Source: Stieleria maiorica (lineage in GTDB: Bacteria > Planctomycetota > Planctomycetia > Pirellulales > Pirellulaceae). Taken from it: a stretch of 64,000 nt of DNA. Position numbers and translations under genes: made by a program. The stretch lies in NCBI RefSeq assembly GCF_008035925.1, contig NZ_CP036264.1, forward strand, positions 2,662,443 to 2,726,442, in the 5' to 3' direction. The notes below the pieces were generated by a model. That model was not told the origin of the DNA. It saw only the letters and a list, made by a program, of their open reading frames with translations, and searched no databases. Positions 1 through 28,904 of the stretch are shown here, piece by piece (within the stretch, counting starts at the first letter, position 1; each line of letters opens with the position of its first letter).

Positions 1-1245
1 ACGATCGTCGTCCTGGAAAACTTCCACCGGTTTCTGCAGTCCGCGGAGATCATCCAGGCCATCGCTCACCAGGTCATCACCGGCAAACAAACCCGGACGA
101 TTCTGGTCGTCCTGGCGCCGATGGTGCAGCTTCCGGTGGAGCTCGAAAAGCTGTTTGTCGTGATCGACCACGAATTGCCGAGCCGCCAGCAACTGCGTGA
201 GATCGCCGCGGCAATCGCCACCGAGCCGGGTGAACAGCCCGAGGAGGCACAATTCGAACGTGTTCTCGATGCGGCGACCGGACTGACCCGGTTTGAAGCG
301 GAAAACGCGTTTGCGCTGTCGCTGGTGCGAGACAACCGCCTGACCGCCGAAACCCTCTGGCAGCAGAAGTCTCAAATGCTGACCAAGGCGGGGACGCTGC
401 AGCTGTATCGCGGCAACGCGGATTTCAGTACGCTCGGTGGCCTGGCGTCGCTGAAAGCGTTCACGCGGCGGTCCCTGTTGCGATCGAATCAGGTCAACAA
501 GCTGGTTCGTCCCCGCGGCGTGTTGCTGTTGTCGCCGCCGGGCTGCGGCAAGAGCGAGTTCTGCAAAGCACTGGGGAAAGAAGTCGGTCGGCCCGTGTTG
601 CAACTGGACGTGGGCAGCCTGATGGGCTCGCTCGTCGGCCAATCCGAGGAACGTACGCGGCAAGCACTGCAGATCGTTGATGCGATGGCACCATGCGTGC
701 TCATGCTTGACGAAGCGGAAAAGGCGTTCTCGGGCGTCGGTGGATCAGGCAGCAACGACAGCGGCGTCTCATCGCGGATGTTCGGCACATTCTTGAGTTG
801 GCTCAACGATCACAAGTCCGACGTGTTCGTGGTTTGCACCAGCAACGACGCGTCAAAGCTGCCGCCGGAATTCAGCCGTAGCGAACGCTTCGACGGTGTC
901 TTTTTCGTCGACCTGCCGGGCCGCGAACAGAAAGACACGATCTGGTCGCTGTATCTGGAGCTGTTCGCTCTGGCACCCGATCAGCGAAAGCCTGCCGACG
1001 ACAACTGGACCGGCGCGGAAATCAGGGCGTGCTGCCGACTGGCGGCATTGCTCGATGTCCCCGTGGTCCAGGCCGCAAGCAACGTCGTCCCCGTGGCGGT
1101 CACTTCGGCGAAATCGATCGACAGGCTCCGTAAGTGGGCGTCGGGGCGCTGTCTGGACGCCGATCAGTCCGGCATCTACCAGCATCGCCCCAAACGCCGT
1201 GCGTCCCGGCGCGGCGTCTCCCGCAGCGAACCGTCGGAAAACTGA
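1..1245 (+). CDS. Ycf46-like AAA+ ATPase (5' end outside window)
   Basis: The reading frame is open to the left edge, so the true start lies before the window. The visible N-terminal part (a run of hydrophobic strands, then LPVELEK and a DHELPSR segment) resembles the N-terminal domain of Ycf46-type AAA ATPases. The AAA+ core follows. Walker A is SPPGCGKS (about nt 532-555). Walker B is CVLMLDEAEKAF (about nt 690-730). A sensor-1-like TSND and an arginine-bearing SRSERFDG segment come after. The C-terminus is basic. It heads the ubiquitin-like gene cluster on the same strand, so an unfoldase or remodelling role for modified targets is plausible but inferred. The AAA+ call is firm; the Ycf46 affinity is from recall of the family pattern. 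Confidence 0.85.
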   Translation, partial: TIVVLENFHRFLQSAEIIQAIAHQVITGKQTRTILVVLAPMVQLPVELEKLFVVIDHELPSRQQLREIAAAIATEPGEQPEEAQFERVLDAATGLTRFEAENAFALSLVRDNRLTAETLWQQKSQMLTKAGTLQLYRGNADFSTLGGLASLKAFTRRSLLRSNQVNKLVRPRGVLLLSPPGCGKSEFCKALGKEVGRPVLQLDVGSLMGSLVGQSEERTRQALQIVDAMAPCVLMLDEAEKAFSGVGGSGSNDSGVSSRMFGTFLSWLNDHKSDVFVVCTSNDASKLPPEFSRSERFDGVFFVDLPGREQKDTIWSLYLELFALAPDQRKPADDNWTGAEIRACCRLAALLDVPVVQAASNVVPVAVTSAKSIDRLRKWASGRCLDADQSGIYQHRPKRRASRRGVSRSEPSEN

Positions 1246-1273
1246 CCCGGATTGCAACTCCTTGTTTTTGCCC

Positions 1274-1302
1274 AACAGCCCCCGTCACCGCGGTGGGCTG
1301 TT
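1274..1302 (+). terminator. Hairpin after AAA gene
   Basis: Inverted repeat AACAGCCC / GGGCTGTT with a GC-rich loop, followed by TTTTCG, sits 28 nt after the ATPase stop. It has the form of an intrinsic terminator or attenuator. Other hairpins follow the later genes of this cluster, so the genes may be expressed as separate units. Confidence 0.5.
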
Positions 1303-1336
1303 TTCGTATCTACCCACCACCGAAGGAAATCATCTC

Positions 1337-2278
1337 ATGCAACAAACACTCGAAGACGCCCCCGCGGCAACAAGCGACCACGGCGGCAAACTTCGCACGA
1401 CGATGGCCGCGATGCGGTTGTCGTTCACTTGGTTCGGGACGCGTAAATCGCTGTCGTCCGAGCAGAAGGCCTTGGCGGCGGACACGTTCCATGCCGAAGG
1501 CAAGTACATCAGCGCTGGAAAAAAGCTGATCGACACCGGCGACGCGAGCTTTCGCGCCGTCACCTCGGTTCGCACCCAAGCGACGGCGTACTTCAAGGGC
1601 GCGACGTTGCCGTTCCCGGAACCGGGGATCCGGCTGGTTCCCCAAGCCTCGGTCGACCAGATCGATAGCCGGATGCAGGGCTTCCGGGACGAGTTGGCGG
1701 AAGCCGTCGCAGCCCTGGACGCTCGTTTTGACGAGCTGAAGTACGAAGCCCGGGATCGTCTCGGCGATCTGTACTGCGAGAGCGATTACCCAGACACTCT
1801 GCGGGGCTTGTTCGAGATCGGCTGGGAATTCCCCAGCGTGGAACCGCCCGACTACCTGCGTCGGCTCAATCCCGAGCTGTACCAGCAGGAATGTGACCGC
1901 GTCAAAAGCCGGTTCGACGAAGCGGTGCAATTGGCCGAGGCGGCGTTCATCGACGAACTCAACAAAATGGTCGAGCACCTCGCCGAAAGGCTGACCGGCA
2001 ACAATGACGGCAAGCCCAAGGTGTTCCGTGACTCCGCGATCGAGAACTTTGCCGAGTTCTTTGACCGGTTCCAGCGGCTCAACATCCGTTCCAACGAAGA
2101 GCTGGATCAGGTGGTCGATCGGGCTCGCCGAGTCATAGACGGTGTCGCACCGCAAACCTTGCGTGACAGCGAGTCGTTGCGTCAGCGGATCACCGGGCAG
2201 TTGGCTGCGGTGCAGTCGTCGTTGGATGGTCTGATGGTCGACCGCCCCCGTCGCAACATTCTGCGGCGGACGAAGTGA
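1337..2278 (+). CDS. Helical protein of Ub-like cluster, DUF3150-like
   Basis: 313 residues. The ATG at 1337 is chosen because AAGGAA lies 8-10 nt upstream; the frame is open further upstream, but that part overlaps the ATPase gene and its hairpin. The protein is strongly charged and predicted mostly helical. It has no signal peptide or membrane segment. A central segment with PFPEPGIRLVP, then MQGFRDELAEAVAALDARF, resembles phage-type DUF3150 proteins, which often accompany MoxR/AAA ATPases. Its position directly after an AAA+ gene suggests a partner of that ATPase. I do not recognise a catalytic motif. Real gene: confident. Family: tentative. Confidence 0.7.
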   Translation: MQQTLEDAPAATSDHGGKLRTTMAAMRLSFTWFGTRKSLSSEQKALAADTFHAEGKYISAGKKLIDTGDASFRAVTSVRTQATAYFKGATLPFPEPGIRLVPQASVDQIDSRMQGFRDELAEAVAALDARFDELKYEARDRLGDLYCESDYPDTLRGLFEIGWEFPSVEPPDYLRRLNPELYQQECDRVKSRFDEAVQLAEAAFIDELNKMVEHLAERLTGNNDGKPKVFRDSAIENFAEFFDRFQRLNIRSNEELDQVVDRARRVIDGVAPQTLRDSESLRQRITGQLAAVQSSLDGLMVDRPRRNILRRTK

Positions 2279-2283
2279 TCGGC

Positions 2284-2550
2284 ATGGAACTGATCGTCAC
2301 CCCGGGCGGCAACTGCCGCTGCGTCTACAGCGAGGACCTGGACCTGTCCGTCATCGGCAAATTATCAATCCAGCGCGGCTCTCACGTGGAGCCCGACCAA
2401 AACGGCCAATGGATGGCTGATCTGTCTCCTGTTGGCGGCCCCAGTCTTGGACCGTTCGCCAACCGTAGCGAGGCCCTGCGAGCGGAAGTCGCTTGGCTAC
2501 ACCAGCACTGGCTACAGCCCGCCCCGGCCGAAGCCTTCAAGACTGATTGA
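2284..2550 (+). CDS. Small conserved protein of Ub-like cluster
   Basis: 88 residues from ATG 2284 (a GTG at 2275 overlapping the previous stop is an alternative start). The stretch HVEPDQNGQWMADLSPVGGPSLGPF followed by SEALRAEVAWL reads like a small alpha/beta domain of the kind that often appears beside planctomycete and plasmid gene cassettes. No enzymatic motif is visible. It starts within a few bases of the upstream stop and ends just before a strong terminator, so it is probably translationally coupled to the helical protein. Function unknown. Confidence 0.65.
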   Translation: MELIVTPGGNCRCVYSEDLDLSVIGKLSIQRGSHVEPDQNGQWMADLSPVGGPSLGPFANRSEALRAEVAWLHQHWLQPAPAEAFKTD

Positions 2551-2570
2551 ATCGTTTGAGTCCTGTTTTG

Positions 2571-2617
2571 AAGCCCTTTCAGGTCAGCGCTGTCCGCTGA
2601 CCTGCGAGGGCTTTTTT
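2571..2617 (+). terminator. Strong intrinsic terminator
   Basis: Nested stem: AAGCCCT pairs with AGGGCTT on the outside and AGGTCAGCG with CGCTGACCT on the inside, followed directly by TTTTTTCGTTTCTT. It closes the unit of the ATPase, helical protein and small protein. Confidence 0.8.
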
Positions 2618-2651
2618 CGTTTCTTCCCCCACCTTTTGGAGAACCCTTCCG

Positions 2652-2858
2652 ATGCTTCAAGCAGACCTTTATCGCAGTGTTTCTCGTGCGACGGGAGAAA
2701 CCGTCGCCACCATCAAGCGTCTCGGCTTTCTGATCGCCGATCCCGACATCTCGATCAGCGACCCGGAAGCCGAGGATCTCGGCCCCCACGTCATCGACTG
2801 GGACGCATTTCATGCCGCACAGGATGACATCAATGCGGAGCTGTCTTTCGAGTTCTAG
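2652..2858 (+). CDS. Small acidic hypothetical protein
   Basis: 68 residues, ATG preceded by a TTTTGGAGAA ribosome site 10-12 nt upstream. The N-terminus (LQADLYRSVSRATGETVATIKRLGF) is helical. It is followed by an acidic tail rich in Asp and Glu with DWDAFHAAQDDINAELSFEF at the end. No known domain is recognised. It is bracketed by two terminators, so it seems to be expressed as its own transcript between the ATPase part and the conjugation part of the cluster. A small regulator or adaptor is possible; that is a guess. Confidence 0.65.
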   Translation: MLQADLYRSVSRATGETVATIKRLGFLIADPDISISDPEAEDLGPHVIDWDAFHAAQDDINAELSFEF

Positions 2859-2909
2859 GTGCCGTGGTTCGGGTTGCCATCGATCGCAACCACGAATCAA
2901 CGCCACCCG

Positions 2910-2957
2910 CGATGACCGGCGGTGCGCCCAGCGTGCCGCCGGTCATCGTTTCTTTCG
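2910..2957 (+). terminator. Intrinsic terminator before Ubl operon
   Basis: Perfect 13-bp stem CGATGACCGGCGG (2910-2922) / CCGCCGGTCATCG (2936-2948), then GTTTCTTTC. It lies after the 68-residue gene and about 85 nt before the Ubl start, separating the conjugation operon from upstream transcription. Confidence 0.75.
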
Positions 2958-3041
2958 CCGTGGCCGCCGCCGGGTTCGCATGACGCGAGACCGATCGGCC
3001 GTCACGGCACATTCCAATTCCACCCAGCGGAAATCCAAGCC

Positions 3042-3263
3042 ATGAAAGTCCTACTGATCAACAACGACGGAGCCGGCTTCGCCGACTACATCGACGTGCA
3101 AGACAACACTTCCGTCCAAGACCTGTTCAACCAACGCATCGGGGCTGCCCGGGAGTCGAATTATCTGATTCGAGTGAATCGTCTGCCGGTGCCCCGCGAT
3201 CAAATTCTGCAGGAAGGCGACCGCATCTCGATCACACCGACCAAGATCGAGGGAGCGTCGTGA
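3042..3263 (+). CDS. Ubiquitin-like beta-grasp modifier (MoaD/ThiS-like)
   Basis: 73 residues. The pattern [10 protein letters not shown], then a strand, then [10 protein letters not shown] (helix), [11 protein letters not shown], and a final [13 protein letters not shown] strand is the beta-grasp ubiquitin/MoaD layout, including the DxI.xxGDxI motif of that fold. It directly precedes E2-like, JAMM and E1-like genes, which sets its role as the protein modifier of a conjugation system. Unusually, it ends in Glu-Gly-Ala-Ser (residues 70-73) rather than Gly-Gly. It would either be trimmed to expose Gly71 or be activated on a non-canonical end. The start is ATG 3042 with a weak GCGGAAA upstream. 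The stop overlaps the GTG of the next gene by 4 nt (GTGA). Confidence 0.85.
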
Positions 3264-4378
3264 TTCGGGAGTCAAACCCAGGGCACGCCACCGATGCGGA
3301 GCAAGCTGCTTGCAGGCGTGACCGTGGACTCGATCGCAAGCGTGCTCGAAAGCGGTACCAGATCGCACAGAAGGTTCTGGCGGCAGTTTGCAAAACCTCG
3401 CCACGGCGCCGACTGACGCCAGTCCCAACGGATTCCCTGCAGAGGATCCTGCGATTGCAGCGACTCGAACCGGTCGCCGTCTCACGCGGCTGGCTGCTCG
3501 CGGCAAATCGTCTGCATCGCGAACTCGCCAGGACGTTGAGGTCCCTTTGCGAGTCGATTGATCAATCACTGGTTTCGATGGCTGAAACCGTCGAGCCCGG
3601 CGTCCGCTGCGGAATGCTGGATCTCATCGGCGACTTGACCGCACTGGAAGCCGACTTCGAATCCGTCGAGCTGAACCTGAAGAACCGCACCGTCGGCGTA
3701 ACCACCGAACCGATCGAGCTGGAAGGCGTGCTGTTGGGACCGTTCAAGATCGAGTTGGAGATCCGCTACCTCGGTCAGTCCACTTCCTACCGCGTGATCG
3801 CGACAGATCCGCAGCCTGCGGTGAGCTGTGACTCAACCACACACCCCCACGTGCAGTCGGAAACGCTCTGCGAGGGCGATGGTCATCAACCGATCAAACA
3901 CGCTCTCGCCGACGGCCGTCTGTACGACTTCTTCCTGATCGTTCGTCAGATCCTGCAGACCTACAACCCCGACAGTGCCTACATCAGCCTCGGTGACTGG
4001 TTCGGCGTGGAATGCGGCGATTGTGGTGCGAACGTCGACGAAGACGACACATGCCGGTGTGATCGCTGCGGTCGCCGAACGTGCAGCGACTGTAGCTGCG
4101 GCTGTGAAGCGTGTGACGAGTCGTTCTGTCACGACTGCACATCGATTTGCGAGAGCTGCAGATCTTACTACTGCGACGGTTGCATGGAATCGTGCGACCG
4201 ATGCGGGGAATCTTTTTGCAAACACTGTTTAACGGAGAACCAATGCGATGATTGCCTTGACCAAGAAACGAACGAAGAGCGGTCGCAGGCGCCGACCAAG
4301 ACGCCGGCAGAAGCTGGGCAGGAGCCCAACCCTGCGGTTCAGCCCATACGCCTGGGCGAAACTAAAGTTCCTGCGTGA
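3260..4378 (+). CDS. E2-like ubiquitin-conjugating enzyme fused to RING-like zinc domain
   Basis: 372 residues, GTG start coupled to the Ubl stop. Residues 1-110 are basic and helical. Residues about 150-235 look like a UBC/E2 fold: strands [12 protein letters not shown] and YRVIATDP, then HPHV (195-198) followed by ETLCEGDG with Cys204, matching the HPN...CL catalytic block of E2 enzymes. Then comes [17 protein letters not shown]. Residues 252-332 contain about 20 cysteines in CxxC pairs with one or two His, a RING or treble-clef-like zinc module, as in E3 ligases. One polypeptide would therefore hold E2 and E3-like parts. The last 44 residues (131 nt) overlap the next gene in another frame. 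The E2 call rests on motif and context, not on an alignment. Confidence 0.75.
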
Positions 4379-4952
4379 TCTCGGCGGTACTGAAGTCGGC
4401 GGATTCGGGATCAGCAACGCACACGACCTGCTGCTCGTCGAAGATGTGGTGATGATCGATCAGCTCTGCACACCGGTTACGGTCGAGTTTGACGACGCGT
4501 CGGTGGCCGACTTTTTCGATGACCAGGTCGACGAGGGGCGTTCCCCGGAGCAATTTGCCCGGATCTGGATCCACACCCATCCGGGCAGCTGTCCGTCTCC
4601 CAGTGGGACCGACGAAGAGACATTTGAACGCTGCTTCGGCTCGGCGGACTGGGCGGTGATGTTCATTTTGGCCCGGCACGGAGCCACGTACGGGCGTCTG
4701 AAGTTCAACACCGGCCCGGGAGTCGAAACGCAAGTGCGGCGGAAGATCGACTACTCGGCCCCCTTTGCCGCGGCCGATCACGACCTGTGGTCGACCGAAT
4801 ACGCTCGTCGCGTGACCGTGTTGGATCCGTTTGCGATGCGGCACAGCATGTTTCCGGACAGCAACCTCCGTGACTTTCGCCCGGATTCGCCGGACACGGG
4901 AGCGTCCTGGGAAGCCAGTCCCTGGCATGCCAGCGAGTGGGTTGCGTCATGA
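4248..4952 (+). CDS. JAMM/JAB metallo-isopeptidase
   Basis: 234 residues. All zinc-site elements are present: Glu49 (GGTEVGGFG), His109-Thr-His111, and Ser119-x2-Asp122 in the exact JAMM spacing HxH-x7-S-x2-D. In such operons this enzyme matures the Ubl or removes it from targets. The start ATG 4248 has GGAG 10 nt upstream inside the previous gene. It gives a very basic 20-residue leader (RRRRPRRR), and the core domain begins near residue 30. The 131-nt overlap with the E2-like gene is unusually long. The stop overlaps the E1 start as ATGA. The annotated start could be wrong, but no better in-frame start is obvious. Confidence 0.9.
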
Positions 4953-5605
4953 CCGGGCCAGCAGATCGCTTCACGCGGCAAGCAGGGCTTGTACCCCGAG
5001 AACGTCTCGCAGGACACACGATCACAGTCATCGGCGTCGGCGCCATCGGTCGCCAAGTCGCATTGCAACTCGCCTCAATCGGCGTACCACGGTTGCAATT
5101 GATCGATTTTGATCACGTTGAGCCGACCAACGTCACCACACAAGGTTACCGACACGACCAGATCGGCCAACCGAAGGTGGAAGCGATGGCTTGCGATCTT
5201 CGCTTGGTGGATCCGTTGGTCGACGTGGCCATCGTGAAGGACCGATTCCGACCACGACAGAGACACGGCAAGATCGTCGTTTCGTGTGTCGATTCAATTG
5301 CGTCACGAGCCGCTATCTGGCGTTGCCTGAAATCTCGCTGCGACTTGTGGATCGATGGTCGGATGCGCGGCGAAGTCGTTCGCGTGCTCGCGTCGGATGA
5401 TCCGACACACGACGAGCACTACGAAACGACGCTATTCTCCGCGTCCGAAGCCCACTCGGGCAGTTGCACCACCGCCAGCACCGTCTACGCCGCCAATCTC
5501 GCGGCATCGCTGATGGTCCATCAGCTGACACGCTGGCTCAGGGGCATTCCGGTCGAACGCGACCTGACCGTCAACCTTCTCGCATCGGAAATGATGCCCA
5601 CCTAG
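4949..5605 (+). CDS. ThiF/E1-like activating enzyme
   Basis: 218 residues from ATG 4949 (ATGA overlap with the JAMM stop). This is a Rossmann adenylation domain: GVGAIG at 29-34, acidic DFDHVE at 53-58, N61 and Q65, Lys76 in GQPKVEA, Asp115 in SCVDS, and a candidate thioester cysteine Cys173 in [10 protein letters not shown] before an [10 protein letters not shown] helix. The N-terminal RFTRQ contributes the usual arginine. The size is that of a single ThiF domain without extra domains. It would adenylate the Ubl C-terminus and pass it to the E2-like protein. It is the last of four overlapping genes (Ubl, E2-RING, JAMM, E1). Confidence 0.9.
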
Positions 5606-5652: not shown

Positions 5653-6063
5653 ATGAGACTATCAATCAGTGTCTCGGATTCGCCCTGTCGGGACGGAATC
5701 ACGACGACCTGCTCGGCTGAATTCCAGCTGGACAATTTCGACGCCGATGCGGAGTCACGGCTTCACCGAGTTACCCGTCACTGCGTCGACGCCGTTTCCG
5801 GGTGGGCGATTTCGCCCTCCGAGACAGTAGCACACAGCTCGGGCCGACGTGAACGTCACGACACATCCAGTTCGGCTGACGGCAGCCAACGCTTAGCAAC
5901 GGCAAACCAAGTCGCCGCCATCCGGGCGATTGCGCGCCGTAAAGGTGTGAATCTCGATCATCTGCTTCAAGACCGCATCGGGGTTGCCGACGTTTCGGCC
6001 CTCTCGATTCGTCAAGCCTCAAGCCTGATCGGCGAGCTGAAAGAATCCCGGGACGCCGCCTAA
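5653..6063 (+). CDS. Small protein with C-terminal ATxxQ..IARRKG motif
   Basis: 136 residues, ATG with GGAGCCCCC upstream. The N-terminal 60 residues look like a beta domain with no match I can name. The C-terminal 48 residues (ATANQVAAIRAIARRKGVN, then LLQDRIGV and LSIRQASSLIGEL) form a motif I have seen at the end of diverse phage, plasmid and DNA-processing proteins, where it behaves like a small DNA-binding module. It lies 47 nt after the E1 gene on the same strand, so it may be part of the same operon. Specific function unknown. Confidence 0.7.
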   Translation: MRLSISVSDSPCRDGITTTCSAEFQLDNFDADAESRLHRVTRHCVDAVSGWAISPSETVAHSSGRRERHDTSSSADGSQRLATANQVAAIRAIARRKGVNLDHLLQDRIGVADVSALSIRQASSLIGELKESRDAA

Positions 6064-6108: not shown

Positions 6109-6360
6109 ATGGAACCAGTCCATATAGTCGTTTTCACGCTGGCACTGGCATTGACTGTCACGGCCTTGCTTTTGCTCCAGTCGAAAACACAGATTCGAGG
6201 ATTGCGTCAGATCCTGAATCATCTACTCCACAACCAACCCCGAAACCACGAGGAGGGCGATGAGAACAAATCTCGCCATGATCTCGGTAATCACGCTCAT
6301 GCCCCTGCTGCTGAGCGGATGCAAGCGCGAACCACCGGTTCTGACCGACCGTCAGGTTGA
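6109..6360 (+). CDS. Small single-pass membrane protein
   Basis: 83 residues. ATG preceded by GCCGAAAGGAAATC. Residues 4-23 form one hydrophobic helix (VVFTLALALTVTALLLL), followed by a basic and polar tail. The last 100 nt overlap the following lipoprotein gene in another frame. Small overlapping membrane protein and lipoprotein pairs resemble phage spanin or secretion accessory cassettes, but no lysis gene is nearby, so I assign no role. Confidence 0.55.
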   Translation: MEPVHIVVFTLALALTVTALLLLQSKTQIRGLRQILNHLLHNQPRNHEEGDENKSRHDLGNHAHAPAAERMQARTTGSDRPSG

Positions 6361-6685
6361 CCAAGTCTTCGATGCCCAGCAAAGGGTACTTGATCAGCAA
6401 GAAATCCTCAGTCAGGGCCGAGACGATCTGGAGTCGGACCGCCGACTCTGGTCCGAACGCGAACGCAGCGACCCGATCGTCGCCAAGTCCATCGAAGCGA
6501 CGGGCATCCTGCTCGCATGCTGCCTGCCGCTTGTATTAATCCTGTTGCTGCTCACAAAAAGCAAACGCGACGAGGTCGCCGAAGCGAGAGCCGATCCGGT
6601 ACTTGTCGAGATGCTCGCGACGGATTCTAAGCGTCTTCCGCAGGATTCACCGCGTTCAGATCAAGCAAACCTACCGGACTGCTAG
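6260..6685 (+). CDS. Lipoprotein with extra membrane helix
   Basis: 141 residues. Strong GAGGAGG site immediately before ATG 6260. The lipobox LLLSGC is at residues 16-21. It is followed by a charged helical region (QVDQVFDAQQRVLDQQEILSQ) and a second hydrophobic helix near 80-98 (GILLACCLPLVLILLLL). The start lies inside the preceding small membrane gene, so the two are embedded. Two membrane anchors on a 141-residue protein suggest a hairpin or a span across the periplasm. A terminator follows at 6706. Function unknown. Confidence 0.6.
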   Translation: MRTNLAMISVITLMPLLLSGCKREPPVLTDRQVDQVFDAQQRVLDQQEILSQGRDDLESDRRLWSERERSDPIVAKSIEATGILLACCLPLVLILLLLTKSKRDEVAEARADPVLVEMLATDSKRLPQDSPRSDQANLPDC

Positions 6686-8393: not shown

Positions 8394-8759
8394 ATGCCGC
8401 AGTTCCCCAACCCTCAACTCGCACAGCAGTGGCGTGACCGCATCGAACGGTTCGCCCAATCCGGCCTGACCGTCACTGATTTCTGTGATCGCGAAGGCTA
8501 TTCGGTCGCCTCCTTCTATCAGTGGCGACGGAAGTTGCGATCCTGCGTTCCCGATCGTCCAACAGGCCCCCGCGATCGAGCGGCCTCGTTCGTCGCGGTT
8601 GAGCTTCTGCCCGCCGCGATGGAAGCGGCTCAACCGACCGGCCTGAAGATTGAATTGCCTGGCGGGGCTGTTGCTCGACTCGACCGGAACGCCACCGACG
8701 AGCAGCAACGCAGGCTGATCAAGAACATCGTCGAGGCACTCAGCGAGGTGGCATCGTGA
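8394..8759 (+). CDS. tnpA: IS66 TnpA-like accessory protein
   Basis: 121 residues. TVTDFCDREGYSVASFYQWRRKL is the HTH of IS66 OrfA proteins. AGGAG lies just upstream. It overlaps tnpB by 4 nt (GTGA). In this family TnpA, TnpB and TnpC are all needed for efficient transposition. Confidence 0.9.
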   Translation: MPQFPNPQLAQQWRDRIERFAQSGLTVTDFCDREGYSVASFYQWRRKLRSCVPDRPTGPRDRAASFVAVELLPAAMEAAQPTGLKIELPGGAVARLDRNATDEQQRRLIKNIVEALSEVAS

Positions 8760-9118
8760 TCGCACTTGCGCCCACTACGCGGATCTTTGTCTACACCGAG
8801 GCGACCGATATGAGGAAGAGCTTCAATGGCTTGTCCGGACTCGTCAAAGAACATTTTCAGGTCGACTTGTTCTCCGGTCATCTGTTCGTCTTTTTCAACC
8901 GTCGGCGCGACTATGTCAAGACTTTGATGTGGGACTGCGACGGCCTGGCTCTCTGGTCCAAGCGACTCGAAAGTGGAAGCTTCGAAAAGATTGTCTCCAA
9001 AGAGCATGGCAGCTTCGAGATCGACTCGGCCGGCCTGGTCATGATGCTCCGCGGTGTGCAGATCGAAGGATCACAACGGCGCAAACGCTACTCGATCGAC
9101 CGCCCTGAAGCGGCGTGA
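8756..9118 (+). CDS. tnpB: IS66 TnpB (Orf2) protein
   Basis: 120 residues starting at the coupled GTG 8756. TDMRKSFNGLSGLVKEHF, then FVFFNRRRDYVKTLMWDCDGLALWSKRLE is diagnostic of IS66 Orf2. Full length and intact. Confidence 0.95.
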   Translation: MIALAPTTRIFVYTEATDMRKSFNGLSGLVKEHFQVDLFSGHLFVFFNRRRDYVKTLMWDCDGLALWSKRLESGSFEKIVSKEHGSFEIDSAGLVMMLRGVQIEGSQRRKRYSIDRPEAA

Positions 9119-9150
9119 GTTAGCCGAGCAAATCTTTTTAAAAAGCATCA

Positions 9151-9183
9151 ACGCAAGGCCCAACAGAGCCTTGCGTTTTTTGT
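9151..9183 (+). terminator. Hairpin with T-tract between tnpB and tnpC
   Basis: Stem ACGCAAGGC / GCCTTGCGT with a T6 tail, 20 nt before the tnpC start. It would attenuate tnpC transcription and so could limit transposition. Confidence 0.6.
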
Positions 9184-10072
9184 TTTGATGGCGATAACAA
9201 CTGCATGGCTGCTTCGGAAAACAATGACGACCTGCAGAGCGCATTGAGGCTCAACGCTGAGTTGATCGAAACGGTTGAGCGACTGCAGAAAGCCAACGAA
9301 CAACTCCGCGAAGAACTGAACCTCTATCGCAGCAAGTTGTTCGGCAGATCTTCCGAGCGGCACGTCGAAGATGACTCGCAGTTGCATCTGTTCGACTTAG
9401 GTGTTCAGCAAGCCGAGAATGACGATGTCGAAGACGATGAAGCAATCCGGCCACGTCGGCGTCGTCGCAAGAAGAAGTCCGAGAAGCTACCGGATCATCT
9501 CAAACGCAAAGTCATCGAGGCGGACGTTCCGGCCGAACAGCGAAGCTGTCTGTGCTGTGGTGAAGAGATGCCGATTGTGGGCACCGACATCAGCAATCGA
9601 TTGGATTTCATCCCGGCAGAGTTTTTCGTCTGGGAGATCCATCGCCACAAACGAGCCTGCTGCAAGTGCAAAGAATCGATCGCTCAGGTGCCCGCCGGTG
9701 AGGAACCCTGCGGACTGACAACGCCGATCCCCGGCAGCGATTATGGCTTCGGTGTTTACACGCAACTGATCGTCAACAAGTTCGCCGATCATCTTCCGCT
9801 CTATCGCGGAGAAGACATCTTCGCCCGCGCCGGGATGCTGATCCCTCGCAACACACAGTTTGGGATGCTGGCGAACATCGCGGCATTGGCCGATGTGTTG
9901 GTGGAACTGATGAAGTCGCGAATCGTTTCAGGCGATGTGCTGGGTGTCGATGATACGTCGGTTCGCCTGCAGGACATCAGCTTGCCGGGCAAGATGCGGA
10001 CTGCACGATTCTGGCTGTATCGAGGCGGGGAGGATCATCCGTATAACGTGTTCGACTTCACGGAAAGCCGGG

Positions 10073-10082
10073 GACGCGACGG
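10073..10082. repeat. Target duplication of nested IS4 element (left)
   Basis: gacgcgacgg here and again at 11642-11651, immediately outside the inverted repeats of the nested element. Confidence 0.9.
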
Positions 10083-11641
10083 CTCGTTGTTATACACAAA
10101 TTTTTGATGATGTATTGATTCGCGAAATCGCTCAAACTGTTGCTCACAGGGAGTTCAGGTGCACGACAGGTAGCAACGGAGTGTTTGCGATGGTGAGCCA
10201 ATGGGTGATTGACGAATTAGAAACGGTGGATCTTGGCGACAAGAGACGAAATGAACGACTTGCCGAAGTGCTCTCCGCCATGGCTGGTTTGCCGAGCAAG
10301 AGCATTCCTGCTGCAGTCGGCGCAGGACACAACGAAACAACGGCAGCCTACCGACTTTTTGATAACGATGCGATCTGCTTTGAGGACATTTTAGCGCCCC
10401 ATATAGATGCCTGCTATAAGCGTCTTGCTGAGCAAGAAGTTGTCATCTTGGCTCACGATACGACGGAACTGGATTTGACGAAACCTAACACGCAAGTAGA
10501 AGGGGCCGGTCCGCTAGATGGCAGTTCACGCTACGGCGAGTTGCTTCACCCGCTGATGGCGTTCACTCCCACCGGCACGCCCTTAGGAACCGTTGCAGCG
10601 GAACTTTGGACTCGCGAGGAAGGTCCGTCAAAAGCCGATGATCGAAAGAAAGTGCCGATTGAAGAGAAGGAGTCTCTGCGATGGCTTGAAAACCACCGCG
10701 AAGCACAGTTAATCGCTAGCGAGCACCCCGAAACGCAAGTTGTCTGCGTGGCTGACAGCGAAGCGGACATCTTTGAAGTCATCGAGTGTAATTCCGATTC
10801 TCCAAAGAACTTTTGGTGGATTATTCGCAGTTGCTATGACCGTTCGATCGTTGATCAGCACGGTCGGCCATCAGGAAATCTGCATGAAAAACTCGCCGCG
10901 AGCAAAGTACGCTACACCAAAGCGATAACGATTCGTTCGCACCAACCCAAGTTAGCCTGTGACAAACGAGCACGCAATCAACCGCGAGAGGCACGCCAAT
11001 GCGAACTCGAGGTGCGTGCAACGACGCTGACACTGAAGAACCCCTATCGGCCCGATCGACACCTACGGCCCACGAAAGTCAACGCGATTTGGGCTCACGA
11101 GATCGATCCGCCTGAAGGGGATACGCCTATCAGTTGGCTGTTGCTGACCAATATGCCGATTTCGAACAAGGAAGAGATTGAGCTGGTGTTGTCTTACTAC
11201 TGCATTCGCTGGTTGATCGAAGTATTCTTCCGAACTCTCAAATCAGGCACTCGCATCGAAGCAAAGCGGTTTGAAAAGATCGAACGATTCGAGCGTTGTC
11301 TCGCTGTTTCGATGATCTTGGCGTGGCGAACGTTCTACAGCGTGCGGATCGGTCGCGAATGTCCAGACGTCAGCTGTGAAGCAGTATTCGTAGCCGACGA
11401 ATGGCAGCCGGTATACAAGATCGTCACCGGGGAAGATCCGCCAAAGAAACCACCGACGTTGAAGGAGATCGTCCGCATGATCGCTCGGCTTGGCGGCTAC
11501 ATCGACCGACCACGACATGACGAGCCTGGCACCGATACGGTCATGCGCGGCATGGAACGACTCTACGACATCAGTAGTTGTTGGCGAAGCTTTGGTCCAA
11601 ATGCAACCAGATCAGGGGAATGAATTGTGTATAACAACGAG
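10083..11641 (+). mobile_element. IS4-family (Tn5/IS50-like) element inside tnpC
   Basis: 1,559 bp with 17-bp terminal inverted repeats ctcgttgttatacacaa (10083-10099 and complement 11625-11641). A perfect 10-bp target duplication gacgcgacgg (10073-10082 and 11642-11651) defines the ends exactly. It carries one intact transposase. The perfect duplication argues for a recent insertion. Confidence 0.95.
10190..11623 (+). CDS. IS4-family transposase, Tn5-like
   Basis: 477 residues from ATG 10190 (the frame is open upstream only into tnpC sequence). The N-terminal WVIDELETVDLGDKRRNERL with KSIPAAVGAGHNETTAAYRLF is the Tn5-type DNA-binding domain. Catalytic residues: Asp in LAHDTTELDL, Asp in VADSEADIFE, and the YREK block Y-x2-R-x3-E-x6-K in YCIRWLIEVFFRTLKSG. 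The C-terminal dimerisation-type region (VRMIARLGGYIDRP) is also present. Intact and probably active. Confidence 0.95.
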   Translation: MVSQWVIDELETVDLGDKRRNERLAEVLSAMAGLPSKSIPAAVGAGHNETTAAYRLFDNDAICFEDILAPHIDACYKRLAEQEVVILAHDTTELDLTKPNTQVEGAGPLDGSSRYGELLHPLMAFTPTGTPLGTVAAELWTREEGPSKADDRKKVPIEEKESLRWLENHREAQLIASEHPETQVVCVADSEADIFEVIECNSDSPKNFWWIIRSCYDRSIVDQHGRPSGNLHEKLAASKVRYTKAITIRSHQPKLACDKRARNQPREARQCELEVRATTLTLKNPYRPDRHLRPTKVNAIWAHEIDPPEGDTPISWLLLTNMPISNKEEIELVLSYYCIRWLIEVFFRTLKSGTRIEAKRFEKIERFERCLAVSMILAWRTFYSVRIGRECPDVSCEAVFVADEWQPVYKIVTGEDPPKKPPTLKEIVRMIARLGGYIDRPRHDEPGTDTVMRGMERLYDISSCWRSFGPNATRSGE

Positions 11642-12398
11642 GACGCGACGGCCCGGCAAAATTCCTTCGTGATTTTCACGGCCACGCGGTGGTCGATGCT
11701 TATGGAGTCAACGACGGAGTCTATCTTGGAGCACAGGATCAGATCTTTGCCGCGTGCTGCAATGCGCACGCACGTCGAAAGTTCGTCGAAGCCAGACCGA
11801 ACGACCCGGTCGCCGCTGCGCGGGCACTGGCGTTTTACCGTGGCCTGTACAAGGTTGAAGATCGCGTGCGAGAAGCTTCGGCGGCCGACCGACTGGAACT
11901 GCGTCAGAACGAGTCGGTGCCGATCATGAACGACCTTCATGACTGGTTGCTGCAGATGAACGGTGATCGACGAGTGCTTCCGAAGAGCTCGATCGGCAAG
12001 GCGGTGCGTTATGCGTTGAATCAGTGGGATGAGTTGTCGGTGTTCCTTGGCGACGGCGCGATCCCGATTGACAACAATGCGACGGAAAACGAACTTCGCC
12101 GCTTGACGATCGGTCGAAAGAACTGGTTGTTCGTCGGATCAAACCGAGGAGGCCGAGTGGCGGCGACGATGTATAGTCTTGTGTCTTCGGCGGCACGGCA
12201 TCACTTGGATGTTTGGGCCTACGTGGACGATTGTCTTCGTCAGTTGGCAAGTGGCAGCACAGATTACGAACGCCTGCTTCCCGACGTGTGGCGCAAGGAA
12301 CACCCGGAGTCGATCCGTCCCTACCGCGACGCCGAGCAGAAGACGCGACGCCTGACCACACAGCAACGTCGAGTGCGTCGCCGTGAGGCGAGGGTGGC

Positions 12399-12692
12399 GT
12401 GATGACGAAACTGACCGAGCGAATTCAACTGACGCGTGAACATCGTGACTTGATCCTGAAGTACGGCTATGTATCGGGCCGCTTAGAGGCGTCACTACGA
12501 CGCTGGCCGAAAGAACAAGCGATTCGCCGAGTGGGAATGACTCGGGTAGAGCTGCAGTGGCTAATCGGCGACCTGAGCCACTCGTGCGTCAAAGGCAAAG
12601 CGGGTTCTGATGTTGAAGCGGTCGCTGACCTGTGCGACCACCTTGAGTACGCCCAGCAAACCGGCGACGGGGACCTGGACATGATGTGGTGA
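12399..12692 (+). CDS. Small protein at the 3' end of IS66 operon
   Basis: 97 residues, overlapping the tnpC stop (GTG 12399 or ATG 12402). The helical sequence with LILKYGYVSGRLEASLRRW and LCDHLEYAQQTGDGDLDM shows no catalytic motif. Tight coupling to tnpC and location within the terminal repeats mark it as a passenger or accessory gene of this IS66 group. Function unknown. Confidence 0.6.
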   Translation: MMTKLTERIQLTREHRDLILKYGYVSGRLEASLRRWPKEQAIRRVGMTRVELQWLIGDLSHSCVKGKAGSDVEAVADLCDHLEYAQQTGDGDLDMMW

Positions 12693-18490: not shown

Positions 18491-21400
18491 TCAGGCGGCA
18501 TCAGTCGAATCTGGTTTTGCGATCGTCAACGGTGCTGTCGGGTTGAGGTCGACAAGTTTGAATTGCTTGGCTCGTCCCTCAGTGACTTCAATCCGGTAAT
18601 CGGTTCTTGGACGTTTACTTAGCTTGACCAGTGCCCAGGCAAGCGTTCGTGATGACGGACGGTTTCCAGACATTCCGATCGCTTCGATCATCTCTCTCAG
18701 TGCGTCTGACGAGTTTCCGTTTGTCAGCTTGCCCACCGTGCTGAAGCTGTCGCGCGGTCGCTCGGCTTTTTCGAACTCACGGACAATCTGAGAGGCGGTC
18801 ATGCCGGATCCGTTGACGGTATCACGGTCAAGCGACCTGAAGGCCGCTATTACAGTGTCATAGACGTCGTTTACTGTGCTAGCCTGCTGCAGACTATCAC
18901 GAGTTGACAGTGGTGACGGCAAGTCGCAGAATTCGACAAATCCGCCGACGAATCGTGACCAGCCCTCGAAGCTGGCAAGTGTCATTTCCGACGGCGGCAA
19001 CGGTGCTCCCGCGGCGATGTACGCATGCAGGCACGCGAGAATTCGCATGTAAATATTGTGGTGTCGCTGCTGTGCTTCTGCGAGTAAGTTTTCAATTCTA
19101 AACGTTCGCGCTTTGTATGCGGAATCTGTAATATTCAATCGCACTGGAAGCGTTCGTCTCAAAGTATCCGGAGTGAATGTCGCGCTGTTGGTGGTCACAA
19201 TCATCATCGCTTGGTTGGTCGCCTTGTACGGTTCATTCCCGCCGAGAATCCGGTCGCACCAGATCTCGGCCGTCAGAAACATGTCCATTACGGCGCCACC
19301 AATTTCAGCGTCGGCGTTGTCAAGCAAGATCATCATTTCGCCGCGCATGAGCATCGATGTGATTGTCTTTCGCAGTTCTTCCTGGTTCGCTTGGTAGGCG
19401 AGGAACGAAGGTTGAAATCCGGTCGCGATGATGTGGCCTAAGGATGCCAGTAGAGATTTGCCGGCACCCTCAACGTTTGCTTCGTGGACGAAAAGCGGTG
19501 GCCGCCCCGTGAACAAATGTGGGACGATTTCGGTCACGACTTCAGCGAGAAAAGCGGCTTGATCCTGCTCATCGTTGAGCCACGGGAATTCCTCGATCAA
19601 TTTCCACAGTGGGTCCAACATTAGGAGCGGTTCACGATCCATTTGTGGCAGGGCTGGATATTTTTGGGACGATTTGACGAGAACCCTCAGCTCCGGATCG
19701 TAGCCGTCGCGAATGATACTGCCATCGGCCCGGAGAACCGGGGCCGACGACACGCGGTCCAGAACTCGAATCCCGAAGTGATGCGCTTTATGGCTGTGGC
19801 CATGCACGTGGGGCGCTGCCCATTTCGGAACGCCTGCCGGTCCGAAATCAAGGACCTCATTGATTTCGCTCGGCAACACCGTTTGCTTCAGCTCCATTAG
19901 CCGGAGTTCTCCCGAGCAATCCACGTAGCTTTCGACCAACCGTCCTTCTCGGACGAACAAGTCTTCACGCTTAGCGAGTTCGCGTAAGATCGTTCCAATG
20001 ATTTCCTTTGTTGCTACTTTGCTGTTTCGAATCTTCGGTCGCCCCTTGGAGTCTGAAAGCTGCCAGTCATTCGGGTTGTATTCCGCGGCCGCGGCGACAA
20101 GCTCACGAAGCTTCTCTTCGCCGAACTCGGCGATGTAATCGCGGACGTCCGGCCCTTTCGATTCGACTATGGGGAAAGACAAAACGGCTACCTTTACAGA
20201 TGCTGCCCCAGCATCAAGCAATGCTTGCCTATTTTCGGATACCTTGTTCGCTGCAGCTCTGTCGCGATCGGGAACGAGGATCACGTGACAGCCATTAAAC
20301 ATCGCGGGCAAACGCGATTTGAATAGGCCCGCGAAACACTTGGTCGACAGTCCTGCCGTGTTGACGTAGCCCGCCCCATGCATCGCTGCGGCATCTTTTA
20401 CGCCTTCTACGAGGTGCCACGCCTCCCCGGGCTGTGGTCGCCGCCCCGGGAGGAACAACCCGTGCTTGGCGTGCCACTTTATCTTCCCCTTCATCATCTC
20501 GGGGCTTCCCAGCGACATGCGGAAGTAGCCGTCCAGGTCTACGCCGTCCAACTCGACACCTACTGCGTCTGCGGGCTCAGGGTACCAGAGCGGAACCCTG
20601 ATTTCGTCTTCTCCGTGTCTGTCCTTGGCTACCGCTGCGCCGAACGCGACGAATGACTCCGGTGGCATCTTTTTCATCGCGGCGAATTTGACGATCAGCG
20701 AGTGAATGTCCGGAGTCTCTTTGGTCGCGTTCTTCGTGACTTTCTTTTTGCGGCGAGGCTTTTTCTTTCCCATTTTTTGGGTCGAACTCTTTGATTTTGC
20801 CGCCGGCTGGACGGGGCACAGCGGGGGATATGCCGTTTTCGGCGATTTTGGTGAGGCTGCGTCAACTAGACGGGCTTCCATTTCCACTGCGATTTGTTCG
20901 GCCTTTCTCTTCTTGCTTTTCAATTCCCGCTCGCACGCGACGAGGTTAAATTGAACGCGGTAGTTGGGCTCATCATCGAAATCGATTTCGAGATTGCTCC
21001 AATCGATCTTGTCCGAGAGCGGTGGCGGAGCGTCGATGACGTCGGACGCGAAGATGTCCTCGATCACTCCGTCGATGACTTCCGGATCGCTGTGGTCATC
21101 GCCGCGTAGCATTGCAATTGTCTCAACCACGTTGCAAGTCGACGTCTCACACTTGGCGCAATAGACGAGACCGCGGCGTTTAAACGATTGGCCCTTGCCC
21201 AGCCCGGAATCCTCACCTTTGCCGCCATAAAGGGCGTAGATGCTGCTTTCTGTGCCGCACCGATTGCAGGGCCAGTTTTTCTGTCCTTCGGCGGTAAATC
21301 CGCTGCGTCGGGCATCGCTGCCGGAGATTTTGGGATGAACTTCGACCGGCGACGCGTTGGATGTGAGCTTCTTTACCAGTGCGTCATAGTGACCGAAGGC

Positions 21401-21562
21401 GCGTTTGGCGATCCATTTGACCGCGACCTCGCGGCAACTCTCGCCGATGAGTAGGCCAGCTTCAGCGCGAGCCTTGCGTAGGGCCTGACTTCTCCTAAGG
21501 CGTTGGGATGTTGTGGGATTACTAGATTTTGCTTCGCCGTACGTATTGGTTATACTTGACAT
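18491..21562 (-). CDS. Primase-helicase of mobile element
   Basis: 1,023 residues from ATG 21562. A zinc ribbon uses Cys99/Cys102 and Cys135/Cys138, typical of DnaG/P4-type primases. Around residues 330-470 is a TOPRIM-like domain (VEGVKDAAAMHGAG, VILVPDRDRAAANK). The C-terminal half carries a superfamily-3 or DUF927-like ATPase with Walker A VEGAGKS, acidic Walker B MMILLDNADAE and a sensor motif VTTNSATF before TLRRTLPVRL. Single-protein primase-helicases of this sort replicate plasmids, phages and integrative elements. It sits next to a repeat cluster that could be its origin. Confidence 0.8.
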   Translation of the reverse strand: MSSITNTYGEAKSSNPTTSQRLRRSQALRKARAEAGLLIGESCREVAVKWIAKRAFGHYDALVKKLTSNASPVEVHPKISGSDARRSGFTAEGQKNWPCNRCGTESSIYALYGGKGEDSGLGKGQSFKRRGLVYCAKCETSTCNVVETIAMLRGDDHSDPEVIDGVIEDIFASDVIDAPPPLSDKIDWSNLEIDFDDEPNYRVQFNLVACERELKSKKRKAEQIAVEMEARLVDAASPKSPKTAYPPLCPVQPAAKSKSSTQKMGKKKPRRKKKVTKNATKETPDIHSLIVKFAAMKKMPPESFVAFGAAVAKDRHGEDEIRVPLWYPEPADAVGVELDGVDLDGYFRMSLGSPEMMKGKIKWHAKHGLFLPGRRPQPGEAWHLVEGVKDAAAMHGAGYVNTAGLSTKCFAGLFKSRLPAMFNGCHVILVPDRDRAAANKVSENRQALLDAGAASVKVAVLSFPIVESKGPDVRDYIAEFGEEKLRELVAAAAEYNPNDWQLSDSKGRPKIRNSKVATKEIIGTILRELAKREDLFVREGRLVESYVDCSGELRLMELKQTVLPSEINEVLDFGPAGVPKWAAPHVHGHSHKAHHFGIRVLDRVSSAPVLRADGSIIRDGYDPELRVLVKSSQKYPALPQMDREPLLMLDPLWKLIEEFPWLNDEQDQAAFLAEVVTEIVPHLFTGRPPLFVHEANVEGAGKSLLASLGHIIATGFQPSFLAYQANQEELRKTITSMLMRGEMMILLDNADAEIGGAVMDMFLTAEIWCDRILGGNEPYKATNQAMMIVTTNSATFTPDTLRRTLPVRLNITDSAYKARTFRIENLLAEAQQRHHNIYMRILACLHAYIAAGAPLPPSEMTLASFEGWSRFVGGFVEFCDLPSPLSTRDSLQQASTVNDVYDTVIAAFRSLDRDTVNGSGMTASQIVREFEKAERPRDSFSTVGKLTNGNSSDALREMIEAIGMSGNRPSSRTLAWALVKLSKRPRTDYRIEVTEGRAKQFKLVDLNPTAPLTIAKPDSTDAA

Positions 21563-23228: not shown

Positions 23229-23273
<45 letters not shown>

Positions 23274-23401
23274 GTTGAAAAAGACTAGTTTTTCTTATAG
23301 CCGAAACCGCGATTTTGGGTTCCGCTTGATGGTCAAGCGTGCGGCGTTTCCACCGGAGCCAAAACGGTACATACCGTTTTGGCATTCAGGAGACCCATCG
23401 C

Positions 23402-25209: not shown

Positions 25210-25496
25210 CGTCTCTGAGCGAGCCACCATTGCCAGTATTCGGCATTGGCGTCGCGACATATCACTGCAGGATTACACGCACCCGCGTGCAATCCGCTGA
25301 AATCGTTTGGAAAACGACGCAACAGATTGTCTTCCCATCCGATAAACAATGGCGGCCGGCGAAAAAGTTCCGAAGCTTTTGAAATAAGCCAGCGACCTTG
25401 CGCATCGTATTCCTGTGCAGAATAACTCGGTGCAACGCTTTTCGGGTGGAACCCTCTGTATAACAAACCCGTGAAAGCTTGTTTTGACAACAAAGA
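25210..25496. other. Intergenic, no gene seen
   Basis: The minus-strand frame that runs through here continues antisense over the preceding gene and shows no domain, so I do not call it. Confidence 0.4.
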
Positions 25497-27038: not shown

Positions 27039-27272
27039 GTCACCCTCCCAGCGTAAAACGCCAACCATGTAAATAGCAAGGATTGCGGAAGGTGCCGCAG
27101 ATTGCAACCATTTGGCCGCTCCTTGAACACCCGAGCAATGCCTGGGAAAATCCCCCGGCATTCTGAACGGTCATGGAGGCCGGATCGTTTGGTTGCGGCC
27201 GAAGGCTGCGACGTGCCAACATGCGTGAGACAACTTTGAGTTTTTCAGAGTTGAGGGCACGGAGCATTTTGC

Positions 27273-27671
27273 ATGACCGAGAACGCTGACAAAAAAGTTG
27301 AGAAAAATCCTGAGGTGACTGAGAAAGCGAGCCGTCGTCGCTTTACTGCCGAGTACAAACGCCGCATCGCGCTCGAGGCCGAACGGTGTACCGAGCCTGG
27401 TGAAATCGGAGCCCTGCTGCGACGCGAAGGGCTTTACTCGTCAGTGGTAGGACGCTGGCGTCGTCAACTTCGGGAAGAACCATTGTCATCATCGAAAAAA
27501 TCCAATCGAGCAGCATCACCCAAAAAGGCGTCAGCGGCAAAGGAACTCGCTGATCTGAGGCGTGAGAATGAACGCTTGAAAGAGAAACTCCGTCAGGCGG
27601 AGTTGATCATTGACGTCCAAAAAAAAGTCTCGGAGATGATGCAGACGCGATCACCCGAGAAGACAGACTGA
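27273..27671 (+). CDS. IS3-family OrfA
   Basis: 132 residues. RRRFTAEYKRRIALEAERC with IGALLRREGLYSSVVGRWRRQL is the HTH of IS3 OrfA, followed by a leucine-zipper-like coiled coil (ELADLRRENERLKEKLRQAELIIDVQKK). The reading frame shifts to OrfB at the A8 run near the end. Confidence 0.9.
   Translation: MTENADKKVEKNPEVTEKASRRRFTAEYKRRIALEAERCTEPGEIGALLRREGLYSSVVGRWRRQLREEPLSSSKKSNRAASPKKASAAKELADLRRENERLKEKLRQAELIIDVQKKVSEMMQTRSPEKTD
27619..27627 (+). promoter_or_regulatory. -1 programmed frameshift site (A8G)
   Basis: Eight A residues followed by G in the overlap. OrfA codons read CAA AAA AAA GTC. Slipping back one base gives CCA AAA AAA AGT and enters the open OrfB frame, producing the OrfAB transposase, as is standard for IS3 elements. 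Confidence 0.75.
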
Positions 27672-28696: not shown

Positions 28697-28904
28697 GAGA
28701 CGTCATTGACGCACCCTCGATCCGGCTATCCCTTGGACGGTTGCGTCCCCGCAGAGCCATCTTCCGTTTCACCGGACGAATCGACGATACCACAAGAAAC
28801 ATCATTGAACACCCGAGCCATGCCTAAAAAAATCCCGGGGGTTCGGGGGCTGGCCCCCGCGTACGCTGGGCTGCCCTGCTAACAAGTATCCAAAAGTTGT
28901 CTCA

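Follow-up and report, generated by a model that had tools for sequence, protein, structure and literature searches.

What does a gene set resembling that for ubiquitin conjugation do in a planctomycete, and for whom does it work? The question is raised by a 64,000-nt stretch (the window; G000:C1:2662443-2726442) of the single 9.89-Mb contig NZ_CP036264.1 of Stieleria maiorica. Positions 1-5605 are the 3' part of an operon and carry genes for a ubiquitin-like protein (Ubl), an E2-like protein with a cysteine-rich tail, a JAMM metalloprotease and an E1-type adenylating enzyme, in that order. We confirmed the cassette seen in an initial annotation: the reading frames agree on the genes and on their overlaps of 4, 131 and 4 nt, and the key residues are all found, namely GVGAIG and Cys173 of the E1, HPHV and Cys204 of the E2-like protein, and E49 and H109-x-H111-x7-S119-x2-D122 of the JAMM protein. 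Closely related sets lie on phage contigs, an indication that mobile elements put protein tagging to use for themselves. Activation, transfer and removal of the Ubl is the natural reading of the gene content, and for the chemistry as a whole we hold it with considerable confidence; that the cassette works as a Ubl-conjugation system in the service of mobile elements, chemistry and beneficiary taken jointly, is a conclusion we somewhat favor.

The E2-like protein had been described as an E2-RING fusion, a claim that its two halves bear out unequally. The window protein has no match to any Pfam model, and the Pfam UBC family was matched by none of 22 members at E values up to 10. Searches of PDB sequences with the protein and with its profile returned nothing beyond weak matches to zinc-finger and helical chains. 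When a profile of the E2 core was aligned with nine planctomycete UQ_con proteins using hhalign, HPH...C fell on HPN...C at E 9e-5, better than all 31 controls (best values 0.042 for eleven unrelated profiles and 0.031 for twenty column-shuffled UQ_con profiles). The alignment spans 44-45 columns at the active site, so that it supports the active site and the part following it and not yet the whole UBC fold. HPH and Cys204 are invariant in the 22 rows of alignment A1, which uses 22 of 25 E2 places (L038, L042 and L053 were omitted because our script found no start codon). Across 78 E2 frames, HPH...C is present in 76, as HPHV in 72, HPHI in two and HPHL in two; the viral frame L142 has HPN...C and L121 ends inside the motif. 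No complete E2 frame was obtained for L079, L087 or L089.

The RING half of the claim is less secure. The window tail contains ten CxxC pairs spaced 15, 8, 7, 8, 7, 8, 7, 8 and 9, an array alternating between 8 and 7 for most of its length and keeping Cys at every repeat position, and its PDB matches are weak zinc-finger matches led by Midline-1 (0.0084) and TFIIH p44 (0.013). Ten pairs are found in 33 of the 56 rows of alignment A5, with 7 to 19 in the others and 19 in one phage copy; A5 comprises the window and 55 of the 78 E2 frames, picked among those with HPHV, and its invariance is thus partly selected. The tail resembles a chain of binuclear treble clefs. Such an array could also be a module that binds nucleic acid or a partner and has no E3-like role, an idea otherwise compatible with conjugation and one that we regard as quite possible. 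Its regular 15-residue repeat and the variable number of pairs point that way, whereas the spacing of the first six cysteines (C-x2-C-x11-C-x2-C-x4-C-x2-C) agrees with that of a cross-brace treble clef, and RING and FYVE chains are among the weak PDB matches.

The residues expected of the remaining enzymes are strongly conserved. In all 18 E1 rows, Cys173 and the three Gly of GxGxxG do not vary, unlike the other letters of GVGAIG. A Cys stands at the Cys173 place in 111 of 114 E1-like frames gathered for a tree (91 identified by pattern and 20 by eye); the exceptions are a ThiF-like protein of the source genome and two weak or partial frames. We take Cys173 to be the counterpart of the catalytic Cys of UBA5 and ATG7. 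The JAMM motif E...HxH-x7-S-x2-D is invariant in all 17 rows, and JAB and Cap3 models match the protein weakly in scans with defence and NCBIfam profiles. For the Ubl, Gly occupies the tail place in 76 of 76 cellular matches having the tail motif (four more matches are without it); Ala follows in 71 of them, and 12 stop right after the residue following this Gly. The Ubl profile matched MoaD in the PDB weakly, at 0.32.

Together, these features suggest a reaction scheme. The E1 would adenylate the Gly of the Ubl tail (...KIEG-A-S), perhaps after the JAMM protein has trimmed the residues behind it, and would hold the Ubl as a thioester on Cys173 before it is moved onto Cys204 of the E2-like protein. 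The zinc array of the E2-like protein itself would stand in for a separate E3, docking the substrate or the charged E2, and the JAMM protease would both mature the Ubl and take it off again. An AAA+ protein and its DUF3150-like partner, encoded upstream, may work with the cassette, probably by remodelling tagged complexes. The best family matches, ThiS for the Ubl and ThiF models for the E1, are also in keeping with a sulfur-carrier pathway of the ThiS/MoaD kind instead of protein conjugation. That pathway is most improbable here: an E2-like protein and a JAMM protease share the same overlapping gene set, which occurs on phage contigs as well, and the E1 has no CxxC pair, with no rhodanese match and no cofactor gene recognised among the operon neighbours.

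E2-like relatives occur in 14 of 392 planctomycete genomes and in four of the 14 genomes of the genus, and the order Ubl-E2-JAMM-E1 holds at all 22 places fetched from other planctomycete genomes. In a second scan, a Ubl profile was compared with named genomes and the best 80 of 138 relatives were used. The full ordered set is present in 55 of the 61 loci with at least 3.6 kb downstream of the Ubl gene; L069, L072, L106, L109, L122 and L135 miss it. The neighborhood of the E2-like protein is thus non-random. By record title, the best 80 relatives are 76 Planctomycetota, two bacteria, one Chloroflexota and one Emcibacter metagenome-assembled genome (MAG), and the putative Chloroflexota and Emcibacter relatives (L064, L085) are both MAG contigs. 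The earlier suggestion of a planctomycete subtype agrees with these cellular relatives and is too narrow for a cassette that also lies on viral contigs and on a tRNA-integrated element.

When the start codon nearest upstream of the JAMM model match is taken, the JAMM gene still overlaps the E2 gene in 63 of 65 loci (median 113 nt), and the retention of this out-of-frame overlap argues for coupled translation. Ratios of nonsynonymous to synonymous substitution (dN/dS), calculated with our own Nei-Gojobori script against the other two genomic copies and one relative, were below 0.4 in all ten genes tried, as under purifying selection. The lowest values were those of the Ubl (0.00-0.06), AAA+ (0.04-0.06) and DUF3150-like genes; the E1 gave 0.12-0.17, the JAMM gene 0.12-0.16 and the E2 gene 0.26-0.33. 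With three copies in the genome, these ratios and an order conserved elsewhere, the cassette is not a chance arrangement. The upstream partners are kept less often: among the 29 full loci whose upstream sequence extends 8.5 kb or more, p68 is found in 20, the DUF3150-like gene in 15, p91 in 15, and AAA+, DUF1257 and DUF2997 in 14, so that the partners vary more than the core of four genes. A second cellular arrangement, seen in L074, L102, L107, L116, L126, L137, L139 and L140, has a GHKL-type ATPase upstream (a weak HATPase_c_3 match, scanned on L139), and seven of these eight loci also have a cluster whose L136 member matches DUF2958.

The three genomic copies (A, in the window, B and C) are about 92% identical over 7.7-7.9 kb. 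Copy A is on an integrative mobile element, as indicated by tRNA-derived repeats and an adjoining integrase. The element measures 25.8 kb and lies between perfect 47-bp repeats at window -2524 and 23230, which correspond to the 3' part of an intact tRNA-Pro(TGG) (G000:2494382-2494456) plus the sequence after it. A tyrosine integrase adjoins the left repeat (PF00589, 1.7e-10), a truncated copy of the same integrase follows the right repeat, and behind the intact tRNA-Pro stands a related integrase (34% identity). A search of five 20-kb stretches found no tRNA genes; the intact tRNA-Pro was found by pattern, 165 kb away. Copy B is located between this tRNA and the left repeat. Copy C is elsewhere, and two recombinase models matched nothing within the 40 kb fetched around it. 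In other genomes, a large serine recombinase is near nine of 22 cassettes and a tyrosine integrase near nine of 22, compared with none for either model in 20 control stretches, which were taken from eight of the thirteen genomes concerned; the models were made from cassette loci, which favors matches there. Five cassette copies are present in the G238 genome.

The cassette is also carried by phage DNA. Three scans yielded 20 distinct viral contigs, and Ubl, E2, JAMM and E1 genes stand in order on 17 of them. The other three are cut by the contig end, leaving the Ubl on L141, E2-JAMM-E1 on L208 and the E1 on L215. On L203, one of the 17, the genes are arranged as in cells, with AAA+, and this contig may be a provirus or a piece of host flank. 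A terminase match was found in at least eight of the viral records (a set of 18 records, to which L141 and L215 do not belong, was used for the AAA+ count and for part of the terminase search); phrog_2 was also matched in 11 of 14 control genomes, so that the terminase match is a sign of phage DNA but no proof of free viruses. On each of L145 and L146 (L145:3020-15124) there is a second E2-like and E1 match, together with a Ubl protein of three domains; the second-set JAMM of L145 was read by eye. Two other viral contigs have two Ubl matches in a single frame.

An AAA+ partner accompanies some of these viral cassettes. The AAA+ protein of the window strongly matches phrog_8638, a phage family of unknown function (2.1e-81), and this family is found in eight of the 18 viral records, seven of them at 5e-69 or better. 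Only such long, strong matches count, since phrog_8638 was matched in all 14 control genomes, presumably via its AAA domain. In six of the eight records some 3 to 22 kb separate the gene from the cassette, and in L203 the two are adjacent; in L206 a DUF3150-like match stands behind it. Among the families listed for 75 flanking viral proteins scanned against PHROG are helicases, primase, SSB, exonucleases and RNA ligases. The PHROG scans took 27 of 38, 36 of 59, 26 of 37 and 75 of 110 viral frames listed, with at most 25 families given for each; all 52 frames of G396 lay outside the contig scans, five flanking L144 frames from the same contig being in the neighbor scan, and 39,553 bases of G392 were left out, of which L060 covers part.

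In an E1 tree of 112 rows, which omits two weak ones (L150 and the second L139 frame), the cellular rows form one group of 90 (SH-aLRT 93) that also takes in L203 and three viral rows, and several viral lineages branch outside. The root is a single very long branch, long branches come together and a quick method was used, which makes the direction of transfer uncertain.

We propose that the cassette serves integrative elements and phages, most likely through control of replication complexes or host proteins during element replication. The principal rival holds that it is an anti-phage defence system on integrative elements, like Bil, Bub or Cap2/Cap3 of cyclic-oligonucleotide-based anti-phage signaling systems (CBASS), with the phage copies acting in superinfection exclusion or representing captured host genes. 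We judge this possible, though rather unlikely. Its spread is patchy, it is often multicopy and it lies near recombinases, and related bacterial operons act in defence according to two reports (PMC10097602, PMC12355090). Defence models are matched as well: the E1 matches PADLOC E1-E2 (best 8.5e-16), the AAA+ protein matches PADLOC IetA (2.2e-14) and NCBIfam IteA (50.4 bits, cut-off 510), and the JAMM protein matches JAB models weakly. However, wherever a curated cut-off exists these matches fall short of it, the PADLOC rows are superfamily-wide, a Pfam scan recognised no effector domain in the operon, and several viral lineages fall outside the cellular group in the quick E1 tree. The presence of the cassette on phage contigs makes defence less than the default reading; combined with the AAA+ partner found on such contigs and with an operon in which no effector was recognised, it leads us to favor service to the element.

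Several observations weigh against a conjugation system that works for mobile elements. The PADLOC matches to IetA and E1-E2 have to be set on this side. Location on integrated elements fits defence and service to the element alike, and the origin of the recombinase models in cassette loci biases the association somewhat. The named viral neighbors also include an epimerase and phosphatases, and many neighbors are without a name among the families listed. On the chemical side, the Ubl ends in G-A and not GG, the Pfam scores of the Ubl (ThiS), JAMM (Prok-JAB) and DUF3150-like proteins lie below cut-off, and the E2 alignment covers less than the whole fold.

The bacterial Ubl-type systems with a tested role in the literature cited here act in host defence. 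If our proposal is right, protein tagging would also be used by genetic parasites, as seen through phage contigs and tRNA-integrated elements. The cassette, in which a single chain joins the E2 to a ligase-like zinc array, would offer a small E1-E2-ligase-protease system for reconstitution and an extra lineage for the question of where the eukaryotic ubiquitin machinery came from. More tentatively, phages and integrative elements may run a pathway of their own, with an E2-zinc-array ligase, E1, JAMM deconjugase, Ubl and AAA+ remodelling partner used in genome replication to retune host proteins or replication complexes and a three-domain polyubiquitin in some phages, and the planctomycete copies may be offshoots of a mainly viral family.

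Table 1. Features of the cassette, its operon and its element, in window coordinates.
Feature	Position	Strand	Remarks
AAA+ ATPase	1..1245	+	5' end cut by window; full length 496 aa, from L008:19755; Pfam AAA 9.2e-26
DUF3150-like protein	1337..2278	+	sub-threshold: 17.5 bits, cut-off 24.9
p91, small conserved protein	2275..2550	+	without family match in Pfam scan
p68, small conserved protein	2652..2858	+	without family match in Pfam scan
Ubiquitin-like protein, 73 aa, ends KIEGAS	3042..3263	+	ThiS 22.4 bits, cut-off 22.5
E2-like protein with C-terminal zinc array, 372 aa	3260..4378	+	4-nt overlap with Ubl gene
HPHV...Cys204 active-site motif of E2-like domain	3842..3871	+	
Ten CxxC pairs, residues 252-332	4013..4255	+	presumed zinc-binding
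E2-like/JAMM gene overlap	4248..4378	+	131 nt, out of frame
JAMM/JAB metalloprotease, 234 aa	4248..4952	+	metal motif 4572-4613; Prok-JAB 18.8 bits, cut-off 25
E1/ThiF-type adenylating enzyme, 218 aa	4949..5605	+	ThiF 6.7e-26; Cys173 codon 5465-5467; 4-nt overlap with JAMM gene
136-aa protein in repeated unit	5653..6063	+	dN/dS 0.28-0.38
83-aa protein	6109..6360	+	hydrophobic N-terminus (by eye)
141-aa lipoprotein-like protein (by eye)	6260..6685	+	relatives upstream of DUF1257 in other loci
Window part of 7.7-7.9 kb unit, present three times in genome	1..6791		unit begins 1.1 kb upstream
attR-like 47-bp repeat, 3' part of tRNA-Pro	23230..23276	+	attL-like partner at window -2524

The operon starts about 0.9 kb 5' of the window (L008), where a DUF1257-like gene (Pfam, 18.0 bits against a cut-off of 22.2) and a DUF2997 gene (1.9e-14) are found, followed by the start of the AAA+ gene (82 codons). 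Its full order is DUF1257-like, DUF2997, AAA+, DUF3150-like, two small genes, Ubl, E2-like/zinc protein, JAMM and E1; the DUF3150-like gene, between AAA+ and the small genes, is an addition to the initial annotation.

Other genes and repeats were seen on the element and around its integration site. A 1023-aa protein encoded at window 18491-21562 on the minus strand of the same element looks by eye like a primase-helicase and has no Pfam match at 0.01. IS66-type transposon genes occupy window 8394-12402 within the element, and another transposase-like open reading frame (ORF; by eye) splits two parts of the IS66 transposase. The stretch G000:2494382-2685715 contains repeated insertions at one tRNA-Pro, with about 165 kb from the intact tRNA to the left repeat. 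Upstream of copy B, at window -25560 to -23280, is a long array of tandem repeats of about 72 bp, and beside it a 3.5-kb stretch has 99.5% identity to window 25452-28933. On the viral side, SbcCD-like and helicase-like genes (by eye) stand beside the two sets of L145, and an ORF that appears by eye to be an HNH endonuclease (L060:11261-11926, minus strand) lies between the JAMM and E1 genes of a phage cassette.

A wider group of phage E1 proteins is found in GenBank, where 69 phage records have an E1 match, with 26-33% identity among the matches listed and mostly Flavobacterium (29) and Bacteroides (26) phages as carriers. Many of these E1 genes are labelled thiamine biosynthesis protein, a label under which this type of cassette is hidden. 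The E2-like proteins of the window and of L060 gave no match in GenBank phages at E 0.01; in plasmids, the window E2-like protein had no match in PLSDB at E 0.01 and the E1 none at 1e-10. By eye, gp79, gp78, gp77 and gp76 of crAss001 (L216:2286-6696) resemble a Ubl, an unknown protein, a JAMM protein (HSH...SGTD) and an E1, apparently a separate Ubl-type set, with genes annotated as thiamine biosynthesis protein and metalloprotease. In the jumbo Xanthomonas phage PhiXhv-15 (L217:3238-6612), HPHM...CLG and a Cys-rich tail were read by eye in a hypothetical protein of 892 aa, and the gene after it, annotated as thiamine biosynthesis protein, is E1-like (XYR93120-93121); the C-terminal part of the 892-aa protein has matches in four phage records only. 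These sets resemble the cassette in placing a phage E1 beside JAMM-like or E2-like genes, but their E1 proteins share the low identity given above and fall outside the 102-row group of the E1 tree (support 90, unstarred). We regard them as leads and not as members.

Comparison with known systems indicates that the cassette fits none of the catalogued types tested. Type 6d of Iyer and colleagues we take to be the plasmid-associated PRTRC cassette, and membership in PRTRC is very unlikely. The same four activities are encoded, a ParB-like ORF (by eye) lies beside copy B, and PRTRC_ThiF (TIGR03736) matches the E1 weakly; yet this match scores 29.4 bits against a cut-off of 144.75, and the ParB-like ORF has no Pfam match. 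The 2006 catalogue of prokaryotic ubiquitin-like operons by Iyer, Burroughs and Aravind distinguishes types 6a-6e, and its account of type 6d includes an E2 without the classical His and a JAB protein with an extra N-terminal domain (PMC1779556). Type 6d resembles the present set in having Ubl, E1-like, E2-like and JAB proteins encoded by separate genes. Here, in contrast, the E2 has HPH...Cys, as in 76 of 78 frames, and is fused to a zinc array, and the partners are AAA+, DUF3150-like, DUF1257 and DUF2997 proteins. In type 6e, as the same catalogue describes it, the E2-like domain lacks the Cys and JAB and E1 are mostly fused (PMC1779556). The three-domain Ubl on two viral contigs and the double Ubl match in one frame on two others recall the poly-Ubl of this type, whereas the genes of our cassette are separate and keep their active-site residues.

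Canonical E2 proteins of the UQ_con family (PF00179) are present in 14 of 149 genomes of the phylum, 13 of them over cut-off, and none was found in the source genome, so the present E2 family differs from canonical UQ_con. The two share a phylum and an active site that aligns, but UQ_con proteins have an HPN motif, and the nine examined have no CxxC in about 60 residues after it. Planctomycetes also carry operons related to the archaeal RING-type operon, according to a review citing Burroughs 2011 (PMC4197634). A phage-borne set of E1, E2, JAB and Ubl appears in none of the titles listed in our literature search, and we make no claim that it is absent from print. The CBASS Cap3 model NF050170 scored 19.6 bits on the JAMM protein against a cut-off of 200. 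BilABCD and BubCD likewise bring E1, E2, JAB and Ubl functions together in one operon, and the E1 profile matched BubCD in the PDB at 3.1e-10. Bil is described as having an E2 with a CEHH motif and a Ubl with two domains (PMC11354881).

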